Shown piece by piece: positions 49,724-64,000 of a DNA stretch of 64,000 nucleotides. A program made the position numbers and the translations under genes. The stretch covers positions 62,001 through 126,000 of the forward strand of contig NZ_AONQ01000001.1 in the NCBI RefSeq assembly GCF_000342045.1, in the 5' to 3' direction. The notes beneath the pieces are model-generated. The model saw only the letters and a program-made list of their open reading frames with translations. It was not told where the DNA came from and made no database searches. Source of the stretch: Paramagnetospirillum caucaseum (GTDB lineage: Bacteria; Pseudomonadota; Alphaproteobacteria; Rhodospirillales; Magnetospirillaceae). Each line of letters begins with the position of its first letter. Position 1 is the stretch's first letter.

Positions 49724-49828
49724 AAGACACCCTAGCACGCATCCCGCAGAGATGCTGCAGCAGCCGGGGGCTGGCCGAGGAAAGCCTTGCCTGATCCCAC
49801 GCCTCCGTCCAGCCACACTCCCGGCACT

Positions 49829-49860
49829 TGGCGCAAGTGGTAGGATTCGAACCGACGACC
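49829..49860 (-). repeat. tRNA 3'-end fragment on the opposite strand
   Basis: On the minus strand the sequence contains a T-loop core (GGTTCGAATCC) followed by a 3' acceptor-like TTGCGCCA, and aligns with about two thirds of the last 32 bases of the nearby tRNA-Arg. The rest of a tRNA is missing and the T-stem has a mismatch. It is best read as a remnant left by an earlier integration event. Confidence 0.45.
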
Positions 49861-49957
49861 GAGGCCGCAGGGGGGCCTTGCTCGCTTCAGCGTTTCCCCC
49901 CTTCCCACCATCGTGCACCTGCGCTATAACCCTCGCCTCTCGTTCACCGAGATCCGC

Positions 49958-50034
<77 letters not shown>

Positions 50035-50168
50035 TTTTCCTTCATATTTTTCAATGACTTAGCAGAATTACCCCAACGCCTAAAAATGGCGTTGATTCTG
50101 CATGAATTTATCCAATTGGCGAAGTTATTGTAATTGCACAATAATTTACAGCATAGAAATCAGCATCA

Positions 50169-50201
50169 ATACACAAATCTATACACAAAAAAGTAGTGTA
50201 T
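50169..50201. promoter_or_regulatory. Repeats upstream of the integrase gene
   Basis: ATACACAAA occurs at 50169-50177 and 50181-50189, and the inverted half GTGTAT at 50196-50201. They lie in an AT-rich spacer between the tRNA and the integrase start. They may be integrase arm-type sites or an operator; this is inferred from position. Confidence 0.4.
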
Positions 50202-50265
50202 TTGTCTTTACTTATTAATATTATGAGGTATATTTAATTATAACATCAATAACATGGAGGAATAG

Positions 50266-51645
50266 ATGGATGCATCAGGGTATATTAAAGTGATTGACGG
50301 CGTATATATCTACAGCCGCGAAAATGCGGTGACGGGGATTTGGCATTATTATTTTAAGATTGGCAAAAGGGTATTTCGCAAATCAACAGCTACGACCGAT
50401 ATCAATAAAGCGAAGATAGTCGCTATCCACCAATTTCAGGAGGCGACAATCAATATCGACAAGGTGCCTGCCATTGCAGCGGCACCAGCACCAGCCAAAA
50501 CTGTATCGTTCAAGATGGTGGCGAATCGCTGGTTGAACACGCGTCGGGAAGAGAACGATTTTGAACGGAATAACAAGGTGGTGACCAGTTATCTCATTCC
50601 GTTCTTTGACGGGGTGCTGAAGATGAAGGACATCAGCACCATCACCCAATCTCAAATCAACGACTATATCTTATGGCGGCGGTATTATCGGGTGACGGGT
50701 GACGGATCGAAGCAAACCATGAATATCTATCAGCGGGGCGGAAGGCAGGTCAAAGCTGAGGTGGTTCAATATGGGGCTCTGGCAGACTCCACATTGAATC
50801 GGGAGAATATCACCCTAAACCACATCATCAAATTTGCAATGAGCGAAGGGGTGGTCAATCCATCAGCCCTCATCAATGTTCCCAGGTTCAAAGTGGAAGA
50901 CGATAATCGCCCTCACTTCACTGAACAGCAGGCTGATAAATTATGCCATTTGGCGAGAGACCGAACCAAGGTGAAGAACACCAGGAACCAGCGTGAGCGT
51001 CGGATGGTATATAATTTCGCAATCCTTCTTCGCTATACGGGAATGCGTCCTGGTGAATTGCTATCCGTCAGATGGGGTGATGTTGATGATAAAGCACGAA
51101 TCATTAACTTGCCTGGGACAAAGGGGGCAAACAAAACGGGGAAGCGGAAGGTTCCTCTGCTGTTCAAGGAAGCCATCGACCAAATTCACCAAATGCGGCA
51201 AGACCGCCGAGATGAACTCGATGGGAATGAACCAAAATCTGGGGAGCATCTATTCCTTAAAACGGATGGAACACGAATCGAATCCCTCAAAACAGCGTTT
51301 AGCAATTTAGTTGAAGCCTGTGACTTCGAACCATCGAAAAAGGGCGATTTTCTTTCTCCATATTCGTTCCGCCATACCTTCATCACCCAAATGTGCCGTT
51401 CAAGGGCACCAATAGCCCTCACGGCGAAGGCACTCGGAACAAGCGTGGAGATGATACAAAAATACTACGACCACAATATCACCGATGATATTTTGATGTG
51501 GATGGACACCGCCAAGGCAGAGGCACCCGCCCCAGTTCAAGCCCCAGCGCCAAAATCCAGTGGAATGCTCAATCTGGAATTTGGCACCGGCGGAGCGTAT
51601 ATCGAATTTGGGAACGATGGCGTCGGTGTGATCCGTCGAGACTGA
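50266..51645 (+). CDS. Tyrosine integrase of the island
   Basis: 459 residues with an arm-binding N-terminus, SAM-like core-binding domain (about 80-200) and catalytic domain. Active-site residues visible: Arg261 in YTGMRPGELLSVRW, Arg369 and His370 in YSFRHTF (the usual first His is Tyr), and the nucleophile Tyr400 or 401 in QKYYDH. The start has GGAGG five bases upstream. The gene is directly downstream of tRNA-Arg and has much lower GC than the core, as is usual for integrases of mobile islands. An Ala/Pro-rich linker and about 25 extra residues are at the C-terminus. Confidence 0.95.
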   Translation: MDASGYIKVIDGVYIYSRENAVTGIWHYYFKIGKRVFRKSTATTDINKAKIVAIHQFQEATINIDKVPAIAAAPAPAKTVSFKMVANRWLNTRREENDFERNNKVVTSYLIPFFDGVLKMKDISTITQSQINDYILWRRYYRVTGDGSKQTMNIYQRGGRQVKAEVVQYGALADSTLNRENITLNHIIKFAMSEGVVNPSALINVPRFKVEDDNRPHFTEQQADKLCHLARDRTKVKNTRNQRERRMVYNFAILLRYTGMRPGELLSVRWGDVDDKARIINLPGTKGANKTGKRKVPLLFKEAIDQIHQMRQDRRDELDGNEPKSGEHLFLKTDGTRIESLKTAFSNLVEACDFEPSKKGDFLSPYSFRHTFITQMCRSRAPIALTAKALGTSVEMIQKYYDHNITDDILMWMDTAKAEAPAPVQAPAPKSSGMLNLEFGTGGAYIEFGNDGVGVIRRD

Positions 51646-51656
51646 TGGCTGATGAT

Positions 51657-51681
51657 GGAAAGTTGAGATTCCCAACTTTCC
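51657..51681. repeat. Palindrome family C, copy 1
   Basis: GGAAAGTTG and CAACTTTCC arms (9 bp) around AGATTCC. It lies 11 bases after the integrase stop. Related copies at 51883-51905 and 61313-61329. Confidence 0.6.
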
Positions 51682-51813
51682 ATGTCAGGTGGCTGGGATC
51701 ACCCCAGATGGGAATGACGGAAATATCGTCTGTGCAGATGGGCAGTGATGGGCTGCTGGTCCTGGGGTGAAAATTCTCAGGAAATTTGCTGGTCGGTCAT
51801 ATTTCAGAAGATC

Positions 51814-51862
51814 AAAATCCCTAACGAAACTCCTCTAGATAGTAGTTTCGTCTGGGATTTTT
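51814..51862. repeat. Palindrome family A, copy 1
   Basis: Arms AAAATCCCTAACGAAACT and AGTTTCGTCTGGGATTTT match at 16 of 18 positions. The 12-base centre is CCTCTAGATAGT. Other copies are at 54208, 54384, 59964 and 61841. Confidence 0.9.
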
Positions 51863-51882
51863 CGTGGCTGACCGGAAGGCTT

Positions 51883-51905
51883 GAAAGTTGGGAGTCTCAA
51901 CTTTT
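51883..51905. repeat. Palindrome family C, copy 2
   Basis: GAAAGTTG and CAACTTTT arms around GGAGTCT. The sequence GACCGG just upstream and GAGTCTCAACTTTT are shared with the copy at 61313. Confidence 0.6.
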
Positions 51906-52034
51906 TGCGGGGCTGGGATCAATTCGATCTCACTACTGGCATCGAACATCCGACGGGCTATCCCTGTCGCCTCTGCCGCTGTTGCCCAGAACACCAATGG
52001 GCGCCCTTTTTCACGAACGACTAAAAAATTATTT

Positions 52035-52541
52035 TCAAAAAATCATATCAAATTTTTCAAATCCATCCATTTGTGACATCAACCGCTTATCATCTTCCTT
52101 TATTTTATCAAGCTCATCACTTGTTATTTCTGCCCACTTTGCAAAAGCCTGATATTTCATCTCCTGCAACAGTTCTCTATACTCAATCTCACTATGAAGA
52201 ATTCTTGCCGGAGGCTCAAATCCCGCCGCCCGAAAAACATGTGACCAGCGCTGATAAATATCATCATCTGAGTAATTATCATTTACTGGTGTATAGTAAT
52301 AATCTGGGTCATGATCATTTAATCTGTCAGAATATTCACGGATAATATCGTTAAGTTCCATCATTGATATATTATACTCGCGGCAGATTTCACTTTTTAC
52401 AATCCTATTGCGAACAACATAACGGTCTATATCTTCTTTTAATAAGTCATCAGCATCACATGGTGCGCAAATCTTGTATCTAAGCACTTCATATCGGCAA
52501 AATACCTCAAACCATCGCTGTGTTCCTGTTAAAGAAGCCAT
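52035..52541 (-). CDS. Hypothetical acidic protein
   Basis: 168 residues, acidic and rich in Asp, Tyr and Ile, no signal or membrane segments. It contains an HTH-like stretch (NRIVKSEICREYNISMMELN). The ATG is preceded by GGGGGCTGGA. Codon use is AT-rich, like the integrase, so it belongs to the island. Family not recognised. It overlaps the next gene on the same strand by 13 bases. Confidence 0.6.
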   Translation of the reverse strand: MASLTGTQRWFEVFCRYEVLRYKICAPCDADDLLKEDIDRYVVRNRIVKSEICREYNISMMELNDIIREYSDRLNDHDPDYYYTPVNDNYSDDDIYQRWSHVFRAAGFEPPARILHSEIEYRELLQEMKYQAFAKWAEITSDELDKIKEDDKRLMSQMDGFEKFDMIF

Positions 52542-52993
52542 TCCAGCCCCCGTGAATTGCTGCTTGATGACGCCTTTAGCATGGCGAGGTTAGCGGGTTG
52601 TTCTTTCGGTGCCGACCAGTCCGATGTCTCGGCAACCCTGGCAATAAAAATGAAGGAGTTGCAGAAAAAGATTTTCTGACATTTCCTAGATGGGCAGCCT
52701 AACCGCCACTGATTGACGCTAAGATACCCAAATTTCCGCCCAGCCGGAAGGCGGAATGGTGCGATTTTGTCATCGCCATCAATGAAGCCCTGTGCTCGGA
52801 ATTTCAGTTTCGGGGCATCGGCATCGAACTTGCGAGTGTTCCGGCGACTACGGTCACGCATCGACAAATTGGAATAGAAACGCATTGATAAACCAAATTT
52901 TTCGTCAAATGGCTTTGATTTTTTAGTGACCCAACTTGGAATATAGCCATCGATCATGAGCCAATTTGAGGGATTGGCTACCGAAAATTCCAC
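52529..52993 (-). CDS. Hypothetical protein, doubtful
   Basis: 154 residues from a GTG. The first 110 residues (NWLMIDGYIPSWVTKKSKPF; KLKFRAQGFIDGDDKIAPFR) look protein-like. The last 45, rich in Ser, Cys and Phe, look like read-through of a changed frame, so the gene may be broken near its 3' end. It lies just downstream of the small recombinase. No family recognised. Confidence 0.35.
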   Translation of the reverse strand: MEFSVANPSNWLMIDGYIPSWVTKKSKPFDEKFGLSMRFYSNLSMRDRSRRNTRKFDADAPKLKFRAQGFIDGDDKIAPFRLPAGRKFGYLSVNQWRLGCPSRKCQKIFFCNSFIFIARVAETSDWSAPKEQPANLAMLKASSSSNSRGLEWLL

Positions 52994-53005
52994 ATGGCTA
53001 ACCCA

Positions 53006-53578
53006 TCACCCCATCAAATTGACCGCCTTTTTCAGCATGGCATCGTTGACGTCGATATAGCGCTGGGTGGTTGCCAAGGACGAATGCCCAGCCAAGTGCT
53101 GCAATACCCTTGCCCCAACGCCCTTCTCGGCAAGTGTCGTTATGAAGGAGCGTCGACCGGAATGGCTGGATGCCCCATCGATCCCCGCATCGGCATAAAT
53201 CTTCCTGAATAGCTGGACCAACGTGTTTGCCGAGAATGGCTTGTTGGATTTCTGGCTGGCAATCAGGGGGCGGGAAGATTCCCGGGAATCTTGGAGGGCA
53301 ATGAATCGAGCCACCTCCTTCTGAAGCTTGTCGCCAACCATGATGGTGCGACCCTTCTTGCCCTTGGTCATGGACTGGGCGAGGTAGATTTCAGATTTGG
53401 GCTTGCCGGTGGAATCCATCACATCACCGATGGTGAGGCTGGCAATTTCGCAAGCCCGCAATCCAGCAAGCAGGCTGAACTGGAATGCCATGCGATTCCT
53501 GTCTGCATGACGATCTTGGGCGATGATGGACAGAACCCGCTTGGTCTCGTCTTGGGATAGAACCTTCGCCTGTTTCAT
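53006..53578 (-). CDS. Tyrosine recombinase, catalytic domain only
   Basis: 190 residues, about the size of a single catalytic domain; phage integrases have 300-450. The active site is present: LLAGLRACEIASLTIGD (Arg), SSHSGRRSFITTLA (HxxR with Arg and then S in place of the second His), GHSSLATTQRYID (His and Tyr). The ATG at 53578 has GAGG upstream; a GTG at 53593 is in frame. A family B palindrome lies inside and adds QDSRESS (residues 96-102). Such short recombinases invert or resolve DNA (FimB/FimE type) or are the minimal recombinases of mobile elements. Confidence 0.9.
   Translation of the reverse strand: MKQAKVLSQDETKRVLSIIAQDRHADRNRMAFQFSLLAGLRACEIASLTIGDVMDSTGKPKSEIYLAQSMTKGKKGRTIMVGDKLQKEVARFIALQDSRESSRPLIASQKSNKPFSANTLVQLFRKIYADAGIDGASSHSGRRSFITTLAEKGVGARVLQHLAGHSSLATTQRYIDVNDAMLKKAVNLMG
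53275..53292. repeat. Palindrome family B, copy 1 (in recombinase gene)
   Basis: Perfect 18-base palindrome AAGATTCCCGGGAATCTT inside the small recombinase gene, read in frame as QDSRES. Confidence 0.85.
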
Positions 53579-53684
53579 AACCGAAAACCTCACATAATCT
53601 CGTTATGCGAGTATTTTAACTCATTATGGAAAGCAGTCCAGTCGAACCCGACCAAGAAACCCAGCATTTCTGCGGGTTACGGGG

Positions 53685-53718
53685 ATAATCTCATAGAATG
53701 TGCATTCTGTGAGGTTAT
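53685..53718. repeat. 34-base near-perfect palindrome upstream of the small recombinase
   Basis: Arms ATAATCTCATAGAATG and CATTCTGTGAGGTTAT match at 14 of 16 positions around TG. It lies 107 bases upstream of the recombinase start. A second, shorter inverted repeat (CATAATCTCGTTATG) sits at about 53594-53608 just before that gene and shares ATAATCTC. Possible recombination or operator site. Confidence 0.7.
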
Positions 53719-53805
53719 GGTAATTGGTGGTTGATGCCATGCCCATCTGGCAATTATTCCAGGGTTGGGTACTGCCAGTAAAATTAGTGGCATACTATTT
53801 TCGCC

Positions 53806-54163
53806 ATGCCTGACCACATCGCTCCACCATCGACCACCACGGTCCAGATCACCGTCCTGAACCTTGCCCCGATGCTTGGAAGGGGAAACCTTCTGGCATT
53901 GGCTGACGTCGAGGTGCTGCTCGATGGCGTCTCCATCATCCTTCATGGTGTCCAGGTGTGTGCCACGGCGGAACGCACCGAGGTCCGATTGCCGAAGTAT
54001 CGGGGGATCTGATGGGAATTGGGTGGCGGCGATAACCTTGCCGGACGAGGTGAAGGGTCCAATGGGTGATGCCGTCATAGCCGCTGGCATTGAAGCTGGG
54101 GTGTTGCGGGAGAAGGTGGCTGGGTCTGTTCTTGGTTCGGAAACTTCCAGAGAAACTTGCTGA
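53806..54163 (+). pseudogene. Small conserved-type protein gene with a one-base frameshift
   Basis: The first frame (53806-54012) encodes a 68-residue protein with LLALADVEVLLDGVSIILHG and RTEVRLPKYRG, then stops. The next frame continues without gap as DGNWVAAITLPDEVKGPMGD and AVIAAGIEAGVLREKVA to 54163. Removing one G from the run of five at 54002-54006 joins the two to one protein of about 118 residues reading ...LPKYRGSDGNWVAAITLP. The fused sequence resembles small proteins of plasmids and islands in alphaproteobacteria. Inactivation, slippage or a sequencing error could explain it. Confidence 0.65.
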
Positions 54164-54207
54164 TTCATGCCATTTGGGGTCACTGGTCATGTGATTTCTG
54201 GGCGATC

Positions 54208-54255
54208 GAAATCCCTAACGAAACTCCTCTAGGTAGTAGTTTCGTCAGGGATTTC
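54208..54255. repeat. Palindrome family A, copy 2
   Basis: Arms GAAATCCCTAACGAAACT and AGTTTCGTCAGGGATTTC match at 17 of 18 positions; centre CCTCTAGGTAGT. Confidence 0.9.
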
Positions 54256-54303
54256 CGCGATCAATATCGTCATGGATGACTGGGCAGTTTCGTTCAGATC
54301 ATG

Positions 54304-54320
54304 AAGATTCCCGGAATCTT
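54304..54320. repeat. Palindrome family B, copy 2
   Basis: AAGATTCCCGGAATCTT, 17 bases, one G shorter than copies 1 and 4. Confidence 0.75.
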
Positions 54321-54383
54321 GCCGATGTCGCCAGCCACTGGGTGATCTGGGATTTCCCCAAATTTTTGGGTGTGACCAGGGGC

Positions 54384-54415
54384 AGACGAAACTCCTCTAG
54401 ATAGCAGTTTCGTCT
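54384..54415. repeat. Palindrome family A, copy 3 (shorter)
   Basis: Inner arms AGACGAAACT and AGTTTCGTCT are perfect (10 bp); centre CCTCTAGATAGC. The outer arms (AGGG/CCCT) are shifted by one base, and the AAATC part is missing. Confidence 0.85.
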
Positions 54416-54518
54416 ACCCTAATGATTCCGCCGAACTGACAAGGATGACATGGTCTCCTTGCATATTTCATGACATCGGCTTAGATTATGCGCATTAGAT
54501 ATAGCAGGACATAATCCG

Positions 54519-55034
54519 ATGGCTAACGCAGTAGATGACTTCTTCAAGGAGTTTGGGATTGCCCAACCCAAAGCCCGGAAGACCGCTGGCGAAACGCCGC
54601 TTCAAAAGTTCTTCAAGAAAATGGATGAGGAATGCCGCTTCGCCATGCGCTTGAGGAATCAGGAAGATGAGGCATGGGAGGACTTCAAAAGCCGGAAGAC
54701 CCGCCGGTGGTTCAAATTTTATGGGGATGAACTGTGGTCTAAGCTGGGACATTACCCGCTGGATATCAGGGGAAAGAAGGAATTCGGACCAATTACGAAG
54801 CGCCAGAGCGAACGAGAGGTCGACTGGGATGCCCTGTTCAATTTCTACGAAAAAGCCAAGGCGATGATCGAGCAGGACAAAGGCTTGCAGGCGCAGATTG
54901 CGGATCTGGACTCAGCAGCTTCAGAACGCACCTCCAAACCCAGGAAGCGTGGTGGCAAGCCAATTGCCCTTGGCTACGATGGTGGTTCGGAGGATGAACC
55001 GGAAATGGCACCCGAACTTCCCGAAGAGGATTAG
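54519..55034 (+). CDS. Hypothetical island protein
   Basis: 171 residues, charged, helical: FFKEFGIAQPKARKT, MDEECRFAMRLRNQEDEAWE, DALFNFYEKAKAMIEQDKG, with a basic stretch (RTSKPRKRGGK) and an acidic tail (SEDEPEMAPELPEED). No known domain. The gene is followed by a strong terminator and preceded by GACATAA motifs. Base composition is like the methyltransferase genes. Confidence 0.75.
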   Translation: MANAVDDFFKEFGIAQPKARKTAGETPLQKFFKKMDEECRFAMRLRNQEDEAWEDFKSRKTRRWFKFYGDELWSKLGHYPLDIRGKKEFGPITKRQSEREVDWDALFNFYEKAKAMIEQDKGLQAQIADLDSAASERTSKPRKRGGKPIALGYDGGSEDEPEMAPELPEED

Positions 55035-55078
55035 TCGCAGGACATAAAATAGGACATCAGCAAAAATAATTTTGCATC

Positions 55079-55101
55079 AGCCGCCGTTTTGGCGGCTTTT
55101 T
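55079..55101 (+). terminator. Rho-independent terminator
   Basis: Stem AGCCGCC/GGCGGCT with loop GTTTT, followed directly by a run of Ts (shared with the stem end). It ends the transcript of the 171-residue gene. Confidence 0.85.
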
Positions 55102-55150
55102 GCTGGAATATCAGCATGATATCGCGTTATGACATACGATAAGACATAAC

Positions 55151-55179
55151 TTGACATTAAGACACGATGCCGTCATTAT
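55151..55179 (+). promoter_or_regulatory. Sigma-70-type promoter for the methyltransferases
   Basis: TTGACA (55151-55156), 17-base spacer, then CATTAT (55174-55179). It is flanked on both sides by GACATAA-like motifs that could bind a regulator. Confidence 0.5.
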
Positions 55180-55435
55180 GCATGACATGAGGCAAGCAAT
55201 CTCGCTTAGACATAACGTGTCGTCAGCCTCAAGGTAGGGACCCAGATCAGACCTTCGACGCTACCCAGTTCTGCTGAACATCACCGAAGTGATTCATTCA
55301 GGTGATTTCGTGCGGCTGGTCACCAACAAATTTTTGATCCCGATTCCTACCGCCAATACCCGCTGAAAGAAATTCAACCCACACAGGGCATCTCCCCGTG
55401 AACGGAGAGACTTGTCCGCAATCTGGAGAATAACC

Positions 55436-57196
55436 ATGGAGAACGCCAACGCTAATATCGTTAACACCGCCAACATCATCGCCGCCCGCATGACTGAAGG
55501 TGCCACTTTGCTGGGCGAGTATTTTACCGAAATTGACAATGCCATTGCCTCTACGGAGGGCAAGGGTCTCGAATGCACCAAGTATACCTACACCGTCGGC
55601 TTCGACATGCTGAAAGACGTCGAAGCCTTCAAGACCCATCTCGATAAGGTCCGAGTCAAGCTGCGCGACGGCTACTCCATCGACAATCACTTCTACGCAG
55701 TCATCAAGGGTTTCGTCGCCTCCTGCCAGATGCCCACTAACGGCGGGGCAATCTCCCGTATCGCCTCGATCTGCCAGGACGCCTACGCCAATAACATCGA
55801 GGTGGGCGACATCGAAGCCTATATCGAGCAGTTGGGAGGCATGCGTGCCGCCTACAACTTCGGCGCGGCGAAACGTAAAAACGGTCTGCCCGCCAACGAC
55901 AATGGTGCCGTGGATTATTCCCTGCATCTCCAGGTTCATGGCGGCTCGGGCTTCATGGGCATCCTGAACCTGACCGCCAAGGACATCGCCAAGCTGATCA
56001 TCACCAAGGGTTACAAGACCACCGATGGTGATGACGACCCCACCAGCGGCGGTGGTGGCGGTGGACTCAAGACCGAAATCATCGTGGGTGGTGGGGCGAC
56101 CACCTTCACCGAGGCAGTGTCCATTGCAGGCAATGATAATGGGCTCGAAAAGGACGGCGAATTCACCTTCGCCTCGTTCTTCGCCTGCGCCGGTGGTGCC
56201 GACTACGGGATGGTCGCCGCCGGTGGCAAGCTGGTCTATGCCAACGAATTCTGTGCCCGTGTTGCCCGCCTTCATGAGCTGAACCATGGCTCCACCGTTG
56301 ATACCCGTTCGATCAGCGACACCGAACCCACCGACTACCACAGCCCCACCGTGATGGTTGGTGGCTTCCCTTGCCAGCCTTTCAGCACGGCGGGCAACCA
56401 GATGGGGCAATTTGATCCCCGTGGTGAATTTGGTCCGGTGTTCGCACGAAAGATCATGGCTGCGGAGCCTGCCGCCTTCATCTGCGAAAATGTGCCGCCC
56501 TTTCTGAGCGACGAAAAGTTTTCATCGGTTTTCAACGAAATGATGCGCACTTGGGGCAACCGCTACAAGATCGGAGCCTTCATCTTCAACGCCGCCGATT
56601 ATGGCGTTCCTCAGACCCGCAAGCGTTCCTTCATCATCGGCTATCACTCGGATTTGGGCATCGCCTTCAACCCTGCCGATATGACCAAGGTTGAAAAGCG
56701 TTCCACCCTTCTCGACGCCATTGGTGATCTGACCCAGGATGCCGTTCTCTATGATGGCAGCAACCGCGCTCGCCTTACCGGGAACGAATATTCCGGCAGC
56801 GGCTATGGAAAATTCATCGCTGACCGTTCGAACAATGTGCGGTCTTGGGATCAGCCCTCCTTCACCATCGTCTCTCATATCGGTGGCATCCCGCTGCACC
56901 CCGAGCCCGTCGATGAATCGATGAAGACTTCTCCCGGCGTCATCCTCAACGCCTCGGCAGGAACCTATCATCGTCGCCTCACCATCCGTGAGTGCGCCCG
57001 AATCCAGACCTTCCCCGACACCTTCAACTTTGGCGCAGGTCTGGTCCTTGCCCATGACGTGATCGGCAACGCCATCCCGCCCGTGATGATGGAAACCATT
57101 GCCAAGGTCGTGGCGAAGGATTTGACCAAGGTCGGGGTGATCAGCCCCACCAACGACAACAGCAATTTCATCAGCCAGGAGGTGGTCAATGGTTAA
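55436..57196 (+). CDS. DNA (cytosine-5) methyltransferase with extra N-terminal domain
   Basis: 586 residues from the ATG with GGAG upstream. Residues about 1-200 are a helical/mixed domain of unknown family, then a Gly-rich linker (TSGGGGGGLK, about 203-212). The methyltransferase follows with motif I FACAGGADYG (about 246), motif IV GGFPCQPFS with catalytic Cys (about 311), motif VI ICENVPPF (about 348), motif VIII QTRKRSFIIGY (about 392) and motif X IGNAIPPVM (about 542). It methylates cytosine C5; the site is unknown. It overlaps the adenine methyltransferase gene by 8 bases, and no restriction endonuclease is evident. Confidence 0.95.
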   Translation: MENANANIVNTANIIAARMTEGATLLGEYFTEIDNAIASTEGKGLECTKYTYTVGFDMLKDVEAFKTHLDKVRVKLRDGYSIDNHFYAVIKGFVASCQMPTNGGAISRIASICQDAYANNIEVGDIEAYIEQLGGMRAAYNFGAAKRKNGLPANDNGAVDYSLHLQVHGGSGFMGILNLTAKDIAKLIITKGYKTTDGDDDPTSGGGGGGLKTEIIVGGGATTFTEAVSIAGNDNGLEKDGEFTFASFFACAGGADYGMVAAGGKLVYANEFCARVARLHELNHGSTVDTRSISDTEPTDYHSPTVMVGGFPCQPFSTAGNQMGQFDPRGEFGPVFARKIMAAEPAAFICENVPPFLSDEKFSSVFNEMMRTWGNRYKIGAFIFNAADYGVPQTRKRSFIIGYHSDLGIAFNPADMTKVEKRSTLLDAIGDLTQDAVLYDGSNRARLTGNEYSGSGYGKFIADRSNNVRSWDQPSFTIVSHIGGIPLHPEPVDESMKTSPGVILNASAGTYHRRLTIRECARIQTFPDTFNFGAGLVLAHDVIGNAIPPVMMETIAKVVAKDLTKVGVISPTNDNSNFISQEVVNG

Positions 57197-58160
57197 TCAA
57201 TCTCTGCGTCACGCACGCATCCTCGCCGGGGCAACCGCTCCTCTCCCCATCACCAATCATAGCCCCCTCAACTATCTTGGGGGGAAGTGCAAGGTCGCCG
57301 ATCAACTCTGGCTCCTCCGCCCCAACCCAAAGTCGTTTGGCACCATCATCGATCCCTTTGGCGGTGGGGCTGCAACCCCCCTGGCATTCGCTCGTTTTGG
57401 TGTGGGCACCAACAAGCGGTTCCTGATCCGTGACGCCTTCCAGCCGACCATCAATTTCTGGCAGGTGCTCCAGTCCGCCCCGACGGAATTGACCCATGCA
57501 GTCGACGATCTCTTCACCAACTACCCTGACGGTCATGCCCTCGAAACGGCTTGCCTTGATGCCATCAACCTCGGGCAAGATTCCGGGAATCTTCAGGTGA
57601 AGTCGGCGGCGGGCTACTACATCCATACCCATGTTTGCGTTCCTCCCCGGCAATTCGACCTTGCCACTGTTAACTACTCCCAGATGCGCGGTGGGAACTG
57701 GCTCCCGACCGGGGAATTGACCATCGGTCGGCTGCACACTTGGTCCGAGATGATCGCCGGTTGGGACTTCAAGCAGCAGGATTTCCGGAAGACCATGGAG
57801 GAAGCCATTTCCCTTGGTGACGGTGGATTTGCCTTCATCGATCCGCCCTACGAGGGCGGTGGCGCTGGTGACACGCCGGACGTCCTCTATTCCAGCGTCT
57901 TCGGCAAGGCGGCACATGACTTGCTGGCGAACAAGGTGACCGAGGCGACCAACGCCGGGGTCAAGACCCTGATCACCATCAACTACTCCACCGCCAACCT
58001 GGACCGCTACGCCGCCTTCAAGCGGATCACCCGGACGCAGACCTATGCCAGCGGGAACTTGGGCACCGAACTTGTCATCCAGACCTACGAATCGCCGTTC
58101 TTCGACGTCATGATCAAGAATACCGGCTGGGAGGTGTTCGAAGACAAAATCGCCGCCTAG
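57189..58160 (+). CDS. D12-class adenine-N6 DNA methyltransferase (Dam-like)
   Basis: 323 residues. Motifs in the D12 (alpha group) order: motif X NYLGGK (27-32), motif I DPFGGGA (about 55-61) and catalytic DPPY (218-221, in FIDPPYEGG). The target sequence is unknown. A family B palindrome lies inside, read as QDSGNL at residues 130-135. The gene overlaps the cytosine methyltransferase gene, so one transcript makes both marks. Confidence 0.93.
   Translation: MVNQSLRHARILAGATAPLPITNHSPLNYLGGKCKVADQLWLLRPNPKSFGTIIDPFGGGAATPLAFARFGVGTNKRFLIRDAFQPTINFWQVLQSAPTELTHAVDDLFTNYPDGHALETACLDAINLGQDSGNLQVKSAAGYYIHTHVCVPPRQFDLATVNYSQMRGGNWLPTGELTIGRLHTWSEMIAGWDFKQQDFRKTMEEAISLGDGGFAFIDPPYEGGGAGDTPDVLYSSVFGKAAHDLLANKVTEATNAGVKTLITINYSTANLDRYAAFKRITRTQTYASGNLGTELVIQTYESPFFDVMIKNTGWEVFEDKIAA
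57577..57593. repeat. Palindrome family B, copy 3 (in adenine methyltransferase gene)
   Basis: AAGATTCCGGGAATCTT, 17 bases, read in frame as QDSGNL. Confidence 0.8.
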
Positions 58161-58180
58161 TACAAATATCCACCCAGCGA

Positions 58181-58207
58181 TTGGAATGGTCAATTGGACC
58201 ATTCCAA
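58181..58207. terminator. Perfect 11-bp inverted repeat after the methyltransferase operon
   Basis: TTGGAATGGTC and GACCATTCCAA flank the 5-base loop AATTG, 21 bases after the methyltransferase stop. No T-run follows, so it may be a terminator, an mRNA-stabilising hairpin or a protein-binding site. Confidence 0.5.
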
Positions 58208-58251
58208 CGTCTGGCGGAGATAATAAATAAACCAATGATTGTTTGTTTAAT

Positions 58252-58281
58252 TTGACTTAATGCCACTACCTACGGTATTGT
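58252..58281 (+). promoter_or_regulatory. Promoter for the helicase-primase leader
   Basis: TTGACT (58252-58257), 18-base spacer and TATTGT (58276-58281) within a strongly AT-rich stretch. A transcript from here would have a leader of about 185 bases before the start codon at 58474. Confidence 0.5.
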
Positions 58282-58326
58282 TAATATATTAAATAGGTTA
58301 TTGCCGAATTTGATAAATAAATATGT

Positions 58327-58458
58327 GACCAAGGCTTGCTGCTTGATGGTCTTGGATAGAGCGAAACGTTACAGAATCATACCGACTTTCCTGTTCCGCT
58401 CAATCCACAGGAAACCCAGCCCCAGAAGGTTCCAGCAAGCCCCTTCTGGGGCTATTTT
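58327..58458 (+). promoter_or_regulatory. Leader with attenuator-type terminator and complementary loops
   Basis: A strong terminator (stem AGCCCCAGAAGG 58418-58429 with CCTTCTGGGGCT 58442-58453, then ATTTTT) lies only 15 bases before the start codon of the helicase-primase gene. Its loop carries CAGCAAGCC (58433-58441), an exact complement of GGCTTGCTG (58333-58341), which sits in the loop of an upstream hairpin closed by GACC/GGTC (58327-58350). Pairing of the two would oppose the terminator. The layout resembles attenuation control of plasmid replication genes. Alternatively it is simply a terminator for upstream transcription. Confidence 0.6.
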
Positions 58459-58473
58459 TATGAGGAGTGTATT

Positions 58474-60972
58474 ATGAGCGGAAATACAATTAATTATGTT
58501 GATGCCATCTGTGGGGCAGGCAAGACCCATGGGGCAATTTTATATGCCATCGATCAGGCAGCGAACCACGATGCCAAGATCGCCATCATCCAACCTTCCA
58601 GGGAATTGATCCTGCAGACCGAGGCGGCGATGACCAAGCAGATCAGGTCAATGGGGCTGGAAGTGCCCCTCACCACCATCTACTCAGACGACGATATTCC
58701 CCATGGCGATTACGTCTCGGTCAGCACACGGATTCAGGACCACCTCAAGAAGGCGGCAGAAATCCCAACGGGGCAGATCCTCATCATCACCCACGCTGCC
58801 TTTCTGTCCCTGCCCCATTGGCATCGCAAAGATTCTTGGGAAATTATCATCGACGAGGTGCCCAACATCGCCCCCTTCCATCGCTACGAACTGGAAGAGA
58901 ACAGCGATCTCTTGAAGAATCTGGCACGGATTGAGCCGGACCGCGGCAGCCCCGCCTACAATAAGGTGGTCGTTAATGACAGGGAGTTCGTCGAGAAGGC
59001 AATTCTGCTCAACAACGATGTGTTTGGCGTGTTTCGTGACCTCGCCAAGAACCTGATCAACCCCCATGCCGACATCTACTGCCTCAAGGGTCAATGGGAC
59101 AGACTGTCAAGCAAGGGCAATGATTCCATCGACTTCTTCGGCGTGGTCGGTTCCTCGCTGGTCAAGGGATACAAGAAGGTCACCATCATGGGTGCCCACT
59201 TCCCCGATAGCCTGTTGGCGATGATCTGGAACAAGGAGGGCGTCAGGTTCGTCGAGAACAAGGGGATCCAGCTCCGCCACACCGACCATGACATTGGAGC
59301 CAGACAACTCACCGTCAATTACCTCTCGGAACGTAGCTGGTCGAAGGCGTTGAAGAGGAAGGTCGGTATCAGCCATTCCAGCATCAGCCCCATCCTGCCA
59401 TCGATCCAGTCGATCTTGGGAACCTGCCCATTCATCTGGTGCGCCAACAATGACCTGCTCAACCAGGCGGTCGAACCCCACTTCCGAGGAGCAGCCACTC
59501 GCATCTCCAATGTGTCCCATGGCATCAATCAGCACCAAGGCGTCCATCAGGTGCTGGTATTGAGCGCATTGAACCTGACCACCGACCATTTCAAATTCCT
59601 CGAGCAGCGGTTCAGGATCGATCCCACCGAGGTCCAGAAAGCCATCAGCCATGAGACCATTTACCAAGCCCTCATGAGATGCAGCCTGCGAGATCCAGCG
59701 GCGACCGACCCCGTGACCATCATCGTTCCCGACAGGTCATTGGGCGAATGGCTGGTTCGCCAGTTCAAGGACAACGGCAGGATCAAATTGAACCGTGTTC
59801 AAACCGACATTCCTCTTCTGGAAACCAAGTCGGGAAGCACCAGCCGCATGGGTGGTCGCCCGCCCGTGAACGTGGTCGCAATGACCAATGCCGAACGGGA
59901 ACGTGCCCACCAGCAGAAGAAACGGAGAATCTACGATGGGGTGATCTCACTCTGCATGGGTCTAAAAATCCCTGACGAAACTCCTCTAGGTAGTAGTTTC
60001 GTCAGGGAAAATTTGGAGATCTCCCTGATTGGCAACCTTCATTCGTCGCCCATCGAATTCGAGGTAGCAAGCAACGACAATCTGATCGCCCAGCTCAAGG
60101 CTTGCTGGTCCTACAGAGCCAACAACAAGAACGACAACATCCTGATTTCCCCAGCTAAATTCGCCAAAAAGAAGGGTGTTGATACCGAACGGGGTCTAGA
60201 GAATGTGATTTCCGTCCATGGCATCTGGCTCGACCAAGACGACGGCACCCTGACGCCGGACGAGATGAACCGCATCTTCCCCGATATCAGGTTCGTCGCC
60301 ATGAACAGCTTCTCGGGCAACAAGCGATACTTCTTCCCCACCACCAGCCCCATGACCCTCGACGCCTACCATGCCATCTGGGACATCATGGTCGGAGCCA
60401 TCGAGATGTATGGCTACTCGAGGGACAAGGTTGCGCCAAATTTCCATGGAATCGACAGGTCCAAGCGACCCGCCTGCTCCATGTTCTATGTGCCCTGCCA
60501 AGCCAAGGACCCAGCGAAATCATTCTGGATGGAATTCCCTGGGGTGGAAATCGATCCATTGATCTTCATCGATAACTACCTGCTTCCAGACCCAACGGAA
60601 TATGTCGCCGCCCCAGCCTTCGCCAATCCAGTATCGGATGGATTGAAGAGGTTGCGAGAGGCAATTGCCAGAACCAGCAACGACAACGAGGTAGCCAAAG
60701 CCAATCAGGTCAGCTTGGTGATCAGCCAATGGCGCAATGCCCCCAAGGGCGAGGGATCGAGGGAATTCTTCAACCTCGGTCGCCGCCTCCGTGACCTTGG
60801 ACTCGATGAATTCTCGATTCGCCAGAAGCTCATCGATGAAGCTGCGTATGCCCGCCACCCAGACGAACGGCGCAGGGAAATCTCTGGGGTCGTTGCCAAG
60901 GTTACCAAGGGTGGTCATCACCCAGCAGCGTCCAACGACGATGGGGCTGAGGGGCTACGGCGGAAGGGATGA
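58474..60972 (+). CDS. Superfamily 2 helicase fused to a primase-like domain
   Basis: 832 residues. N-terminal SF2 helicase: Walker A CGAGKTHGA (14-18), IIQPSRELI (motif Ia-like), Walker B DEVP (127-130), and motif VI YQALMRCSLR near residue 400. C-terminal archaeo-eukaryotic primase-like domain: WLDQDDGTLT (Asp587/589/590), SFSGNKRYFFPTTSPMTLD and GIDRSKRPACSMFYVP, typical of primases of plasmids and phages. It is the likely replication protein of the island. Residues about 498-513 come from an inserted family A palindrome placed between the two parts. Ribosome binding site GAGGAG. Preceded by an attenuator-like leader. Confidence 0.85.
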   Translation: MSGNTINYVDAICGAGKTHGAILYAIDQAANHDAKIAIIQPSRELILQTEAAMTKQIRSMGLEVPLTTIYSDDDIPHGDYVSVSTRIQDHLKKAAEIPTGQILIITHAAFLSLPHWHRKDSWEIIIDEVPNIAPFHRYELEENSDLLKNLARIEPDRGSPAYNKVVVNDREFVEKAILLNNDVFGVFRDLAKNLINPHADIYCLKGQWDRLSSKGNDSIDFFGVVGSSLVKGYKKVTIMGAHFPDSLLAMIWNKEGVRFVENKGIQLRHTDHDIGARQLTVNYLSERSWSKALKRKVGISHSSISPILPSIQSILGTCPFIWCANNDLLNQAVEPHFRGAATRISNVSHGINQHQGVHQVLVLSALNLTTDHFKFLEQRFRIDPTEVQKAISHETIYQALMRCSLRDPAATDPVTIIVPDRSLGEWLVRQFKDNGRIKLNRVQTDIPLLETKSGSTSRMGGRPPVNVVAMTNAERERAHQQKKRRIYDGVISLCMGLKIPDETPLGSSFVRENLEISLIGNLHSSPIEFEVASNDNLIAQLKACWSYRANNKNDNILISPAKFAKKKGVDTERGLENVISVHGIWLDQDDGTLTPDEMNRIFPDIRFVAMNSFSGNKRYFFPTTSPMTLDAYHAIWDIMVGAIEMYGYSRDKVAPNFHGIDRSKRPACSMFYVPCQAKDPAKSFWMEFPGVEIDPLIFIDNYLLPDPTEYVAAPAFANPVSDGLKRLREAIARTSNDNEVAKANQVSLVISQWRNAPKGEGSREFFNLGRRLRDLGLDEFSIRQKLIDEAAYARHPDERRREISGVVAKVTKGGHHPAASNDDGAEGLRRKG
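59964..60013. repeat. Palindrome family A, copy 4 (in frame in helicase-primase)
   Basis: TCCCTGACGAAACT and AGTTTCGTCAGGGA arms are perfect (14 bp), extended by A/T; centre CCTCTAGGTAGT. It is translated as KIPDETPLGSSFVREN (residues 498-513), in a hydrophilic junction between helicase and primase. Confidence 0.9.
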
Positions 60973-61418
60973 CCACTACCGGCTACCGCTTGGACAGCCT
61001 CGTCAGCATTCCGGCAATTGCAATCGTACAATAGCTGGAGTCATGACATGACCTACTCGCCGGACAAGACCCTGCTGCAGCAATGAGATCGACGAGTGCT
61101 TGGTACTGAGCCAGTTCGGCACCACCACCAGACCGTTCCAGTTCCTGGGCGCATCGAAGTGCGCATTGCGTCGGTGATGAATCATGGCTCATTCCGACAT
61201 GGTATAGCATCCGAGTCAGCACTCAATGATGGAGATTTTATGATTTGTTGCGAACCATGACGTCCATGATAACGAAATATATCGAGACGGGGATTGGTTA
61301 GGTGACCGGCAGAGTTGAGAGTCTCAACTTTTGTCGGGACGTCGATTGATAAACATGAACCCGAATTATCACCTCCTTGATAAATAGATCATAAACCTAT
61401 TTGAGAAGGAGGAGTGCT
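60973..61418. other. Stretch without a supported gene
   Basis: About 445 bases. The first 250 have the GC content of coding sequence but no frame with a start signal or known domain; they may be remains of a lost gene. The rest is AT-rich and has a family C palindrome (61313-61329) and TTGATAAA at 61346-61353 and again at 61377-61384, just before the HTH gene. Confidence 0.5.
61313..61329. repeat. Palindrome family C, copy 3
   Basis: AGTTGAGA and TCTCAACT arms around one base, followed by TTT. GACCGG upstream and GAGTCTCAACTTTT are shared with copy 2. Confidence 0.65.
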
Positions 61419-61790
61419 ATGGCGAATATTAATTTTAACAACGTTACGAACAGATTGAAGGCTGCTGGCAAAATTAAATCTGAAGCCGATATGGGGAACC
61501 TATTTGGGAAAGGTCAGTCCTATGTTTCATCCAGAAAATCCAAAAATCGACCACCGTCACTTGATGCGCTGACCCATTTGGCTTTCAATCTGGAGCAGGA
61601 CATCCAAGAATTTCAGGATGAAGCACGTGAGGGATTGGCATCGGTGGAGGAATGGGAATCCGCCAGCATCTTGTGGGAACTCCAGAACGAGGTGTTCGCC
61701 GTCATCAGGGAAACGGTGCAACGGGACCGTCCCGAGGTATTCGACCGCCATCCCGAATTGAAGCGGTTCATCTCTTGGATCAAGGACTGA
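61419..61790 (+). CDS. Small HTH protein, phage repressor-like
   Basis: 123 residues. The N-terminal 65 residues form an HTH (FNNVTNRLKAAGKIKSEADM, LFGKGQSYVSSRKSKNRPPS, LDALTHLAFNLEQ) like CI/C1-type repressor domains. The C-terminal half (LWELQNEVFAVIRETVQRDR) is helical. The ATG at 61419 has AAGGAGG upstream. Repeats TTGATAAA before the gene may be operators, which is inferred from position. Confidence 0.7.
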   Translation: MANINFNNVTNRLKAAGKIKSEADMGNLFGKGQSYVSSRKSKNRPPSLDALTHLAFNLEQDIQEFQDEAREGLASVEEWESASILWELQNEVFAVIRETVQRDRPEVFDRHPELKRFISWIKD

Positions 61791-61802
61791 TCAGATTCCA
61801 GC

Positions 61803-61820
61803 AAGATTCCCGGGAATCTT
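61803..61820. repeat. Palindrome family B, copy 4
   Basis: Perfect 18-base palindrome AAGATTCCCGGGAATCTT, 13 bases after the HTH gene stop and 20 bases before family A copy 5. Confidence 0.85.
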
Positions 61821-61840
61821 CCCATCCGTTTTCGACGACC

Positions 61841-61888
61841 AAAATCCCTAACGAAACTCCTCTAGATAGTAGTTTCGTCTGGGATTTT
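61841..61888. repeat. Palindrome family A, copy 5
   Basis: Arms AAAATCCCTAACGAAACT and AGTTTCGTCTGGGATTTT, centre CCTCTAGATAGT; identical to copy 1 over 48 bases. Confidence 0.92.
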
Positions 61889-62026
61889 TTCGGAGCACCG
61901 AGGGCAATCACCTGCGGAAACTCCTGCAACACCAGATGGTTAGCTTGGTCATGGGGCAGAAACCCACCAGGGAAGCCCACCAATGGCTCGTTTGATCTGG
62001 CTGGTGGGATTGGGCATTCCTACCAG

Positions 62027-62047
62027 AGAAGCCCCGTATGGGCTTCT
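62027..62047. terminator. Hairpin between convergent genes
   Basis: AGAAGCCC and GGGCTTCT with loop CGTAT (8-bp stem). It lies 31 bases beyond the end of the minus-strand gene at 62078. There is no T-run in either direction, so its role is uncertain. Confidence 0.45.
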
Positions 62048-62077
62048 AAATGGCGTTCCTCGCCATCGAGGAGAAAT

Positions 62078-62299
62078 TCATCCCTTGTCCGATTGGGACA
62101 TGAGGGCGGCAAGATCACTCTGGGTTTTGATCATCTTGGTCCGTTGCCCATTGATCTGTTCCCGCTTCTTCGCCAATGCAGCCTGCTGTTTCAAACGTTT
62201 GGCTTGATCTGCTTTCGCATCTGCCTGTTTTGACAAATTACCAGATAGGGTGTTAGCTGGTTGATCTTCTGTAATCGACATAAATTCGTGGTATCTCAT
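62078..62299 (-). CDS. Small coiled-coil-type protein
   Basis: 73 residues, rich in Lys, Gln and Ala, likely one long helix (SKQADAKADQAKRLKQQAAL; KREQINGQRTKMIKTQSDLA). The ATG has GGAGG upstream. The start MRYHEF resembles some phage structural proteins, but this is too weak for a call. Divergent from the gene at 62417. Confidence 0.6.
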   Translation of the reverse strand: MRYHEFMSITEDQPANTLSGNLSKQADAKADQAKRLKQQAALAKKREQINGQRTKMIKTQSDLAALMSQSDKG

Positions 62300-62416
62300 C
62301 TGATTGCCTCCATAATTGTGCTCAGCAGTATTTATATTTTATCAGGTAAATAGAGCTGGACTGATATTTATGATCGCGTTACTGGTCGCTTCAGGACAAC
62401 ATTACTGGAGATTACC

Positions 62417-62869
62417 ATGAACCTTTCTGAATTGAAGTTCAGCACCGATAAGCGTCCCACTCCTGCCTTTCGTGCCAATCCCACCGAGAAGGCTCGGAGT
62501 GCCGTTCTTGCCAGCATTGCCGTTCAACGCACCCTGCTGAATTCGGAACGCACTGGCACTGCCCACAACATCACCAAGACCATCAAAACCCTCGATGAAC
62601 AGGGCAATGTCATCACCAACACGGTGCAGCGGAAGCCCCGCAAATGGTGGTTCACGAATCCGCAGGGCGTGTTCCTGATCGAGGTTCTGTTTGGTGGTCA
62701 GCCCATCGCCATCAACGGCAAGCAGACTGCCATTGAAGCCGGAGACCTTGATGGGGTGGAGAAGGTGCTGACCATCATTGCCACCGCCGTTGGTGCTGGC
62801 GAGTTGGACAAGGTTCTGGCTGATGCCAAATCCAAGCGGAAGGCTGGTCGCCCCAAGAAGGCGTCCTGA
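62417..62869 (+). CDS. Hypothetical island protein
   Basis: 150 residues. N-terminus MNLSELKFSTDKRPTPAFRA, middle with KPRKWWFTNPQGVFLIEVLF, and a Lys/Arg-rich tail ending KRKAGRPKKAS, an AT-hook-like GRPKK that may bind DNA. The ribosome binding site GGAG is present. Family not recognised. Confidence 0.75.
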   Translation: MNLSELKFSTDKRPTPAFRANPTEKARSAVLASIAVQRTLLNSERTGTAHNITKTIKTLDEQGNVITNTVQRKPRKWWFTNPQGVFLIEVLFGGQPIAINGKQTAIEAGDLDGVEKVLTIIATAVGAGELDKVLADAKSKRKAGRPKKAS

Positions 62870-62934
62870 TGCTTCCCCACGATTCCCACCTTCCCCTTTT
62901 GAATAATTGGGTGAAGGTGGGAGGAGGAATTCCA

Positions 62935-63228
62935 ATGAGCCGCCAAATTTCAATCCATACCGCATACGAAGGGACCATCACCTTCAAGGATGCCATCAAT
63001 GGCAAGGCGATTGGCTATGCTGGCTGGGCGGGCTTCATTGCCAGCATCATCCATACGCAGGGTTGGCGGGCATATGGTTCGCCATCCCAAGAAGGGGGCT
63101 ACTTCATTGCCCTTCAGCATCCCCATATTCCCGAAGAACTTCCCATCGACCCAGGCTTTCATGGATGGCATAGACTTCAACTGGACGACCTGCTGGATTT
63201 TGCAGGTGATGATGGGCTGGTGATGTAG
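62935..63228 (+). CDS. Hypothetical island protein
   Basis: 97 residues (MSRQISIHTAYEGTITFKDA; WRAYGSPSQEGGYFIALQHP). Start chosen for GGAGGAGGA upstream; a longer frame begins at 62869, overlapping the previous stop, but lacks its own binding site. Family not recognised. Same direction as the preceding gene and probably the same transcript. Confidence 0.65.
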   Translation: MSRQISIHTAYEGTITFKDAINGKAIGYAGWAGFIASIIHTQGWRAYGSPSQEGGYFIALQHPHIPEELPIDPGFHGWHRLQLDDLLDFAGDDGLVM

Positions 63229-63231
63229 GCG

Positions 63232-63262
63232 GGTTCAGCGACCCAACGGGACTGCCGCCAAT
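63232..63262. repeat. Direct repeat copy 1 (duplicated gene end)
   Basis: About 31 bases almost identical to 63622-63652 (core CAGCGACCCAACGGGACTGC). On the minus strand it encodes ELAAVPLGR and stop, the C-terminus of the gene at 63624, so it is a leftover of a duplicated gene end. Confidence 0.8.
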
Positions 63263-63263
63263 T

Positions 63264-63536
63264 CTACCCTTGCTTTGATTTTGACGTGTTTTTGACCGCC
63301 TTGTGATTTAGCGAATCGCTTATCACCTGACGCATTGTTGCCAACTCTGCCTCCGAAGGTTCTAAGTCCTTCATCGTAAAGGGACGATTATTTTTCAGGG
63401 CATCCCTAATCATTTTTTTGGATTCGTCAGGATGAAGGAATGCGACAAAGGGAACTTCTCCGAATTGTTCCTCATACTTGTCGATTAACTCCGCCTCTTC
63501 GCCATCCATCGTCATAAATTCATCATCGATCTGCAT
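63264..63536 (-). CDS. Hypothetical acidic protein
   Basis: 90 residues from 63536 (94 from 63548). Acidic, cytosolic: MDGEEAELIDKYEEQFGEVP, HPDESKKMIRDALKNNRPFT. Family not recognised. Directly beyond its stop lies a copy of the 3' end of the neighbouring minus-strand gene at 63624. Confidence 0.6.
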   Translation of the reverse strand: MQIDDEFMTMDGEEAELIDKYEEQFGEVPFVAFLHPDESKKMIRDALKNNRPFTMKDLEPSEAELATMRQVISDSLNHKAVKNTSKSKQG

Positions 63537-63621
63537 TTCGCCACCCATCTATGAGCGATTGCCACCGCCCCACCTGTTGGACAGAAGCAGGATAGATCCA
63601 AGCCGAGATGATGTCAGCAGG

Positions 63622-63652
63622 GTTCAGCGACCCAACGGGACTGCCGCCAGTT
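63622..63652. repeat. Direct repeat copy 2 (end of gene at 63624)
   Basis: Matches 63232-63262 with one visible difference. This copy is the true end of the 91-residue gene. Confidence 0.8.
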
Positions 63653-63899
63653 CAACTTCTCCACCAGCACCAAATTGGGTCTGCATCACGGCGAAGGCGT
63701 ATCGTTCCCCATCGGTGGGACGCCTCGCAGTCAATTTGGCAACTTCATCGGGAGTCGGGTCACGATAGCCAGCCTGCCCATTCAGCGGCATCGCCAGAAA
63801 GCCAGAAGCGTTTTTGACCGCTGAACGGAAGTCACCCGCCCGAACCATACAGAAGGGCTTATGGTTATAATCCACAGCAAACAGCACACGAACAGCCAT
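63624..63899 (-). CDS. Hypothetical island protein
   Basis: 91 residues (MAVRVLFAVDYNHKPFCMVR; YRDPTPDEVAKLTARRPTDG). Good GAGGAGGA ribosome binding site. No known family. Its last 30 bases are repeated downstream at 63232, suggesting a former tandem duplicate. Confidence 0.7.
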   Translation of the reverse strand: MAVRVLFAVDYNHKPFCMVRAGDFRSAVKNASGFLAMPLNGQAGYRDPTPDEVAKLTARRPTDGERYAFAVMQTQFGAGGEVELAAVPLGR

Positions 63900-64000
63900 C
63901 GGTTCCTCCTCTCAAATTCAATGGGCTTATGTTCACTATTTGTTCCATTGTGGTCAAGTAGAAAGAATCTTTAGGTGTCGCTGTCCAATGGTCGGATTGT

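Follow-up and report, generated by a model that had tools for sequence, protein, structure and literature searches.

Why does a gene carry, in frame, a palindrome that also stands in the intergenic DNA around it? We addressed this question in a 64,000-nucleotide stretch of Paramagnetospirillum caucaseum DNA (hereafter the window), which contains five copies of a palindrome (family A) with the 28-nt core ACGAAACTCCTCTAG(A/G)TAG(T/C)AGTTTCGT. Every core is on the + strand, with starts at positions 51824, 54218, 54386, 59975 and 61851. Copy 4 (59969..60008, +; core 59975-60002) lies within an 832-residue ORF (58474-60972), where it is read in frame within the peptide KIPDETPLGSSFVREN (residues 498-513). 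An earlier note on this DNA had observed, correctly, that the other two + frames of copy 4 contain stops; on the reverse strand, one frame is also open. The same note likened the palindrome to the Rickettsia palindromic elements, which are found host-genome-wide in many unrelated genes and spacers, and whose host proteins align on both sides with homologous proteins that are without the segment. The two cases share the translation of a palindrome in frame as a peptide. The proposed dispersed insert is not supported by the distribution found here: all five copies are in one element and on one strand, with none elsewhere in the assembly at up to 3 mismatches, and the palindrome is bound to that element, in one gene, with distant homologues having theirs at the corresponding position. 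The literature matches listed for this hairpin contained no mention of it.

The element lies at a tRNA-Arg(CCG) gene (49958..50034, +), its probable integration target. A 19-base piece of the tRNA gene, CCCTCCGAAGGCAGAGGTC, from 49988 is repeated at 64129 in the joined contig (129 bases beyond the window) as a candidate right att, and the element would therefore be ~14 kb long. Within our own assembly, family A is confined to this element at up to 3 mismatches: no sixth core copy was found in the 4.86 Mb and 236 contigs searched, and a reversed control core had no match there either. The element encodes a tyrosine integrase (50266..51645, +; Pfam Phage_integrase, 3.6e-18), a 195-residue tyrosine recombinase that is barely more than a catalytic domain (53006..53593, -; Phage_integrase, 2.1e-28), a C5-cytosine DNA methylase (55412..57196, +; Pfam, 1.4e-54), a D12-class N6-adenine methylase (57189..58160, +; Pfam, 4.4e-12), the 832-residue protein, and a small HTH-like protein (61401..61790, +; DUF6626, with a CI-repressor HTH match below the cut-off). 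The 3' remnant of another integrase (51735-51770) separates copy 1 from the present integrase; longer versions of it are present in genomes G010 and G041. A search of 48000-64000 against Rfam gave the tRNA plus one match under its gathering score. Other palindromes recur in the element as well. One, AAGATTCCC(G)GGAATCTT, is found at 53276-53293, 54304-54320 and 61803-61820, and its first copy, which is translated in frame (QDSRESS) as part of the 195-residue recombinase, is a second within-gene palindrome. Another, like GAAAGTTGGGAGTCTCAACTTT, is found at 51659-51682, 51883-51905 and 61310-61335 and stands close behind family A copies in the window, G041, G010 and G001.

The five copies differ outside the core. 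Copy 1 (51814..51861, +; 43 nt past the stop, at 51770, of the integrase remnant), copy 2 (54208..54255, +) and copy 5 (61841..61888, +; 50 nt past the HTH gene stop) have a type I outer stem and copy 3 (54379..54419, +) has a type II outer stem, GGGGCAG/CTACCC. Type I intergenic copies are followed by a T tract, as noted for copies 1 and 5, and the type II and in-gene copies are not. Copy 4 is confirmed as a real feature. The 73-nt stretch around it, folded as DNA, gives z = -5.9 on the + strand and -7.2 on the - strand, with none of 200 shuffles equally stable, and its hairpin score of 14.5 was reached by none of 150 synonymous-codon shuffles. The earlier note had also suggested a search for other proteins with the peptide. 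Such carriers exist, in that KIPNETPLDSSFV occurs in ORFs 51745-52152 and 61652-62233, and both are judged to be read-through of intergenic copies.

The 832-residue protein is, by its predicted structure, a helicase-primase, with an SF2/DEAD helicase half first, a variable linker, and an AEP-fold primase half second, because SF2 helicase matches are joined by AEP matches to its C-terminal part. Pfam places a DEAD helicase in residues 10-130 (9.3e-7), and a PDB profile search returned helicases first (best E 6.5e-4), with herpes origin-binding proteins not significant there (E 3). Among 20 aligned homologues, 10 match the PHROG primase family phrog_9765 and all 20 match two families without known function. 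The AlphaFold2 model of the whole protein (20 sequences) has a mean pLDDT of 71, and its top Foldseek matches are XPD/DinG-type SF2 helicases (E 1.3e-8, TM about 0.3). Modelled alone, the C-terminal part (pLDDT 76.7) best matches the S-2L PrimPol (Foldseek E 4.3e-5; Z 10.1, 148 aligned residues, 3.6 Å). RepB', the primase of RSF1010, is second by Foldseek (E 2.1e-4), with Z scores of 7.1 (with its initiator DNA) and 6.6 (whole) that are below the tool's safe level and are exceeded by those of other AEPs (Prim-PolC and CAPP, 7.8-8.6); a special likeness to RepB' is thus suggestive only. Residues 499-512, within the copy 4 peptide, are modelled with pLDDT below 50, in keeping with a flexible linker. 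Alignment, models and fold searches together bear out the earlier note's placement of the palindrome in a tolerant linker between the helicase and primase halves.

Relatives of the gene were found in 23 of the 317 genomes searched within the order, in 5 of 385 within the class (our own genome being in both) and on 5 viral contigs. The closest, in G041 (88% identical) and G001 (93% over 608 residues), share both the palindrome and its position; for G041 the in-gene outer stem is GGGGTAG/CTACCCC, compared with TCCCTG/CAGGGA in the window, with the pairing intact. Distant relatives (25-33% identical) align on either side of a variable linker, and many have a hairpin in it: L071 (TGTCACCGAAACTCCTTTAAGTAATAGCCTTTTGGTGACA), L067 (TGTAACGAAAATACTATAGATAAGGCAATTTCGTTACA), L073, L096, L097 (a near-perfect 42-nt palindrome), L099-like genes, L072 and L090. 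Related sequence occupies the same place in L067, L071, L073 and L096, whose proteins are 28-32% identical to that of the window. The earlier note had expected homologues to lack the segment. Some do have a short linker without a hairpin, but G041, G001 and several distant homologues carry one. It had also held that the same peptide at the same place in unrelated elements would mark an ancestral part of the protein; this was observed in part, since homologues 25-32% identical in other elements have a hairpin at the same place, with peptides that are in several cases similar (IPDETPLGSSFVRE in the window, NVTETPLSNSLLVT in L071, CNENTIDKAISL in L067 and AVTKTSLDDSSSI in L096). The core is read in codon phase 1 in the window, L067 and L071 and in phase 0 in L096 and L073. 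Judged from these sequences, some pull at the protein level may contribute to the likeness of the peptides.

The linker hairpins were compared with codon shuffles of the same genes, leaving out helicase-only genes (L081, L093, L094, L095, L098) and gene fragments such as L035, L042, L043 and L045. Among 27 full genes, each shuffled 100 times, 13 had at most 4 shuffles as good as the native hairpin. In a subset of 16 of these genes (one or two per cluster; 150 synonymous-codon shuffles), the linker reached p<=0.05 in 8/16, compared with 3/95 other windows of these genes (Fisher 3.9e-6); without L023, which is 88% identical to the window's gene, the counts are 7/15 and 3/89 (counted by hand). 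The other eight of the 16 have no significant linker hairpin: L067 (8/150) and L071 (9/150; 2/100 in the 27-gene run) miss narrowly, and in L083, L092, L072, L065, L070 and L091 between 15 and 136 of 150 shuffles equal it. In L079, what reaches significance is another palindrome, close to where the primase begins. No significant hairpin was found in the linker windows of 73-91 residues of L069, L070, L080, L082, L083, L091 and L092. In 19 regions scanned for palindromes scoring at least 12.5, the linker hairpin was the strongest only in L073 and L097; that of L096 was tied, and in the window's element it was second to copy 2. Because the hairpin recurs at the linker of distant relatives beyond the level of codon shuffles, it is, on this sequence comparison, an old or repeatedly renewed feature of the family and not a one-off insert, and it is not universal.

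The stem itself was analysed in 16 distinct copies against 500 shuffles. Paired cells amount to 88.4%, compared with 81.0% in shuffled copies (0/500) and at most 50.9% when the alignment was slid; covariation is 0.226 compared with 0.115 (0/500), and 23 cells changed on both sides compared with 9.7 (0/500). The remaining two of the five measures were unremarkable in these copies (8 double-changed pairs, 58/500; 14 further pair types, 212/500). The hairpin is thus kept despite sequence change, as at a single-strand-initiation (ssi) site, with the double changes coming mostly from the exchange of one outer-stem type for the other, an outcome that copies could also reach by copying from each other. 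The core is almost constant, with a C.T mismatch at two inner positions in 12 and 15 of the 16 copies, and these fixed mismatches therefore give the site a direction. Wobbles in the stem pairs (12 A.C and 11 G.T cells, read on the + strand) favor neither RNA nor DNA. An ACGAAA..TTTCGT stem had 11 matches, of which the window and G041 account for 7; there, too, 7 was reached by the best among 29 permuted stems.

Copies of the window type number 18 in 6 of the 99 genomes searched (our own included), and in each of the six they lie on one strand (in G001, across two contigs). A degenerate motif matched 67/317 genomes of the order at up to 1 mismatch, mostly by chance as judged by a reversed control, and 19 of its 21 exact matches fall within these elements or their remnants. 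Exact occurrences of the core pattern are absent from viral_contigs, whereas genome_contigs yields three: a pair of stretches of Terasakiella sp. PR1 and a single one of a Magnetospirillum MAG. In two other lineages, with four loci between them, an in-gene hairpin has an intergenic copy on the same strand as the gene. In one (L071, from G187), a 114-bp segment that includes the in-gene hairpin is found again between genes (79%, same strand); in the other (G009, G038 and our own contig C60), 74-84 bp of the in-gene palindrome are repeated on the gene strand (79-85%), directly upstream of a 675-residue ORF (L076, L077, L078). L078 is on contig C60 (G000:C60), a second helicase-primase element of our own genome, with the gene near 2.4-4.6 kb and the palindrome at C60 3127 and 14133 only. 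The own genome thus has two elements, each with a hairpin of its own that, at up to 3 mismatches, is confined to that element. L069 and L080 have no linker hairpin, but a like hairpin stands behind an 87-89-residue gene, in opposite orientations relative to the helicase-primase gene. In L090 a hairpin lies 178-235 bases upstream of the gene's open frame, and a reversed copy of it follows after 10.6 kb; L090's linker hairpin has no second copy in the stretch searched. Second copies were likewise absent from the stretches searched, some of them short, for L064, L066, L067, L068, L072, L073, L075, L079, L096, L097 and L099.

Several features of these loci stand apart. In L067, two long inverted copies of a 67-nt hairpin (AAAAAACCACCC..GGGTGGTTTTTT) flank the gene at +4212 and -3777 from its start. 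In L075, L076, L077, L078 and L099, the 15-nt centre of the in-gene palindrome flips with the arms unchanged (flip and flop); in these BREX-type genes one orientation is found in L076 and L078 and the other in L075, L077 and L099, as expected for a palindrome that folds or is template-switched. PADLOC finds PglZ and BrxL beside the L076 gene, and ORFs matching the MkoA and MkoB defence models beside the helicase-primase gene of G187 (L071 13195-18194). In L061 (G010), a ~100-bp unit with palindrome A occurs three times (oriented copies 7762, 10921 and 11607), and the gene blocks between the units, hemerythrin-like and response-regulator-like by eye, resemble inserted cassettes.

Since known cases that behave in this way are origins and priming sites, our best reading of the palindrome is a cis-acting hairpin of the element's own replicon, a proposed origin or ssi site kept inside the replicase gene, whose chances we put at slightly below even. 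Phage P4 has an origin, ori2, within its primase-helicase gene alpha, with a partner site elsewhere, and so resembles the arrangement proposed here. RSF1010 has an element-encoded AEP primase, RepB', that reads 40-nt ssi sites (ssiA and ssiB) containing a hairpin (PMC4434180), and here, too, an AEP-fold primase is encoded alongside (by its fold matches to S-2L PrimPol and RepB'). By comparison with the RSF1010 sites as that source describes them, the present site, known from sequence, is in the gene, its additional copies in the window share one strand, and the primase is fused to an SF2 helicase. In pRN1 a movable stem-loop origin adjoins an AEP-helicase gene and its structure is kept without the sequence, a likeness to the stems described above; the pRN1 stem-loop (about 100 nt) is downstream of the gene, and the helicase is SF3 with a winged helix (PMC4234260). 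The lambda origin is in the middle of the initiator gene O, is built of inverted-repeat units, and accepts extra units in frame (a larger set of iterons lengthens the protein by 13 residues; PMC7466680). The shared intragenic position of the hairpin in the present family, at p<=0.05 in eight of 16 genes, is of this type. According to that account, the lambda units differ in being iterons bound by O, with no helicase-primase fusion. Integrated elements, often in tRNA genes, encode AEP families of which some have remote SF2 helicases akin to the herpes origin-binding UL9, as here; in those families the helicase is C-terminal, compared with N-terminal in the present protein, and hairpins go unmentioned in the relevant passages of the source (PMC5862659).

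If the palindrome is such a site, the SF2-helicase/AEP-primase encoded around it would be its user, and the further copies would serve in intergenic DNA. Once the helicase had opened the DNA, the hairpin would form in one of the strands, and the primase would recognise and bind the near-constant ACGAAACT..AGTTTCGT core, with the variable outer stem holding the structure; a primer would then be made beside the hairpin. Placement in the linker would keep site and enzyme together through element recombination at the cost of one floppy peptide. In favor of an origin are the recurrence at the linker, the extra copies within the same element, the like hairpins elsewhere in L069 and L080, whose linkers have none, the pairing kept across copies, and the fold of the primase model. 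Against an origin stand the three of the six copy-bearing genomes without a helicase-primase match: G005, which is without a stretch matching window 54113-61130 and looks deleted, G008, whose copy sits at a contig end, and G010, which is a single contig. Also against it are the eight of 16 genes without a significant linker hairpin, the loci listed above with no second copy, the covariation that comes mainly from one stem switch, the modest Z scores of RepB', the 7 matches that a permuted stem reaches as well, the inconstant strand in L069/L080 and L090, the copies that come and go between elements (copies 2 and 5 vary in presence), and several intergenic copies that look like terminators.

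The last point leads to an RNA function, in which the intergenic copies are terminators or 3'-end stabilisers and the in-gene variant slows ribosomes or RNA decay; we regard this as unlikely, though it has points in its favor. Relative to + genes the window copies are on the sense strand. Copies 1 and 5, G010 a and c, and those of L071, L069, L080 and L076 lie about 20-60 nt past a stop codon, a placement counted for at least seven intergenic copies. Type I copies finish with a run of three T or longer, with copy 4 keeping the stem and having GGGAAAATTT where the T tract would stand. The T tract is not found in every copy, however, being absent from the type II, G187 and L076 copies; none of the copies follows any of the three ORFs on the - strand in 52035-53593 (one with a Pfam match), and a terminator would have no need of a near-constant 28-nt core. 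A consensus terminator scan had a loop limit of 8 and so was unable to call family A copies.

A mobile palindromic repeat (RPE- or MITE-like) that spread in the elements and entered the linker once, other lineages having palindromes of their own, is in our estimate improbable. Some mobility is compatible with the sequences, since certain intergenic copies of one element are missing from another: G041 is without a 119-bp stretch holding copy 5 (61791-61909) and, by eye, ~150 bp holding copy 2. The repeated unit between genes in G010, where copies with 1-3 core changes follow genes named by eye as an integrase and a response regulator, and an ORF without a name, and the 114 bp common to gene and intergene in G187, point the same way. 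The position of 19 of the 21 exact matches in elements or remnants, the single strand within each of the six genomes, and the same linker place occupied by different sequences in divergent proteins argue against it, as do the want of a close empty site for copy 4 and of a target duplication at copy 5 (by eye).

It is very improbable that the hairpins are attC-like recombination sites behind cassette genes for the element recombinase. Their uniform orientation behind genes, imperfect palindrome and C.T mismatches at fixed places would suit such sites, as would the small tyrosine recombinase and the gene blocks between repeats in G010, but an attC core was not recognised by eye, and a site within the gene would split the replicase. 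Least probable is that the segment is simply protein, with an ancestral peptide of the linker (xETPLxSS) whose codons are palindromic by chance: this would account for the similar peptides in L071, L067 and L096, but non-coding copies keep an intact core, pairing holds while residues change (IPDETPLGSSFVRE to GVDETPLDSSSVYP), and the codon shuffles described above weigh against chance.

For the family of replicases, the reading as an origin or priming site has an extension that we consider possible but somewhat doubtful: the family may keep a priming hairpin in its linker that is private to each lineage, with satellite copies in some of the elements and paired stem switches, and so form a private origin code. 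Should this hold, the in-frame palindrome would be explained without mobile insertion, and there would be a warning that a palindrome translated in frame in a single protein may act in cis instead of being a repeat that was inserted. The origins of cryptic AEP-coded elements would be findable through the linker of the replicase, and matched pairs of enzyme and site would be at hand for direct tests of primase specificity.
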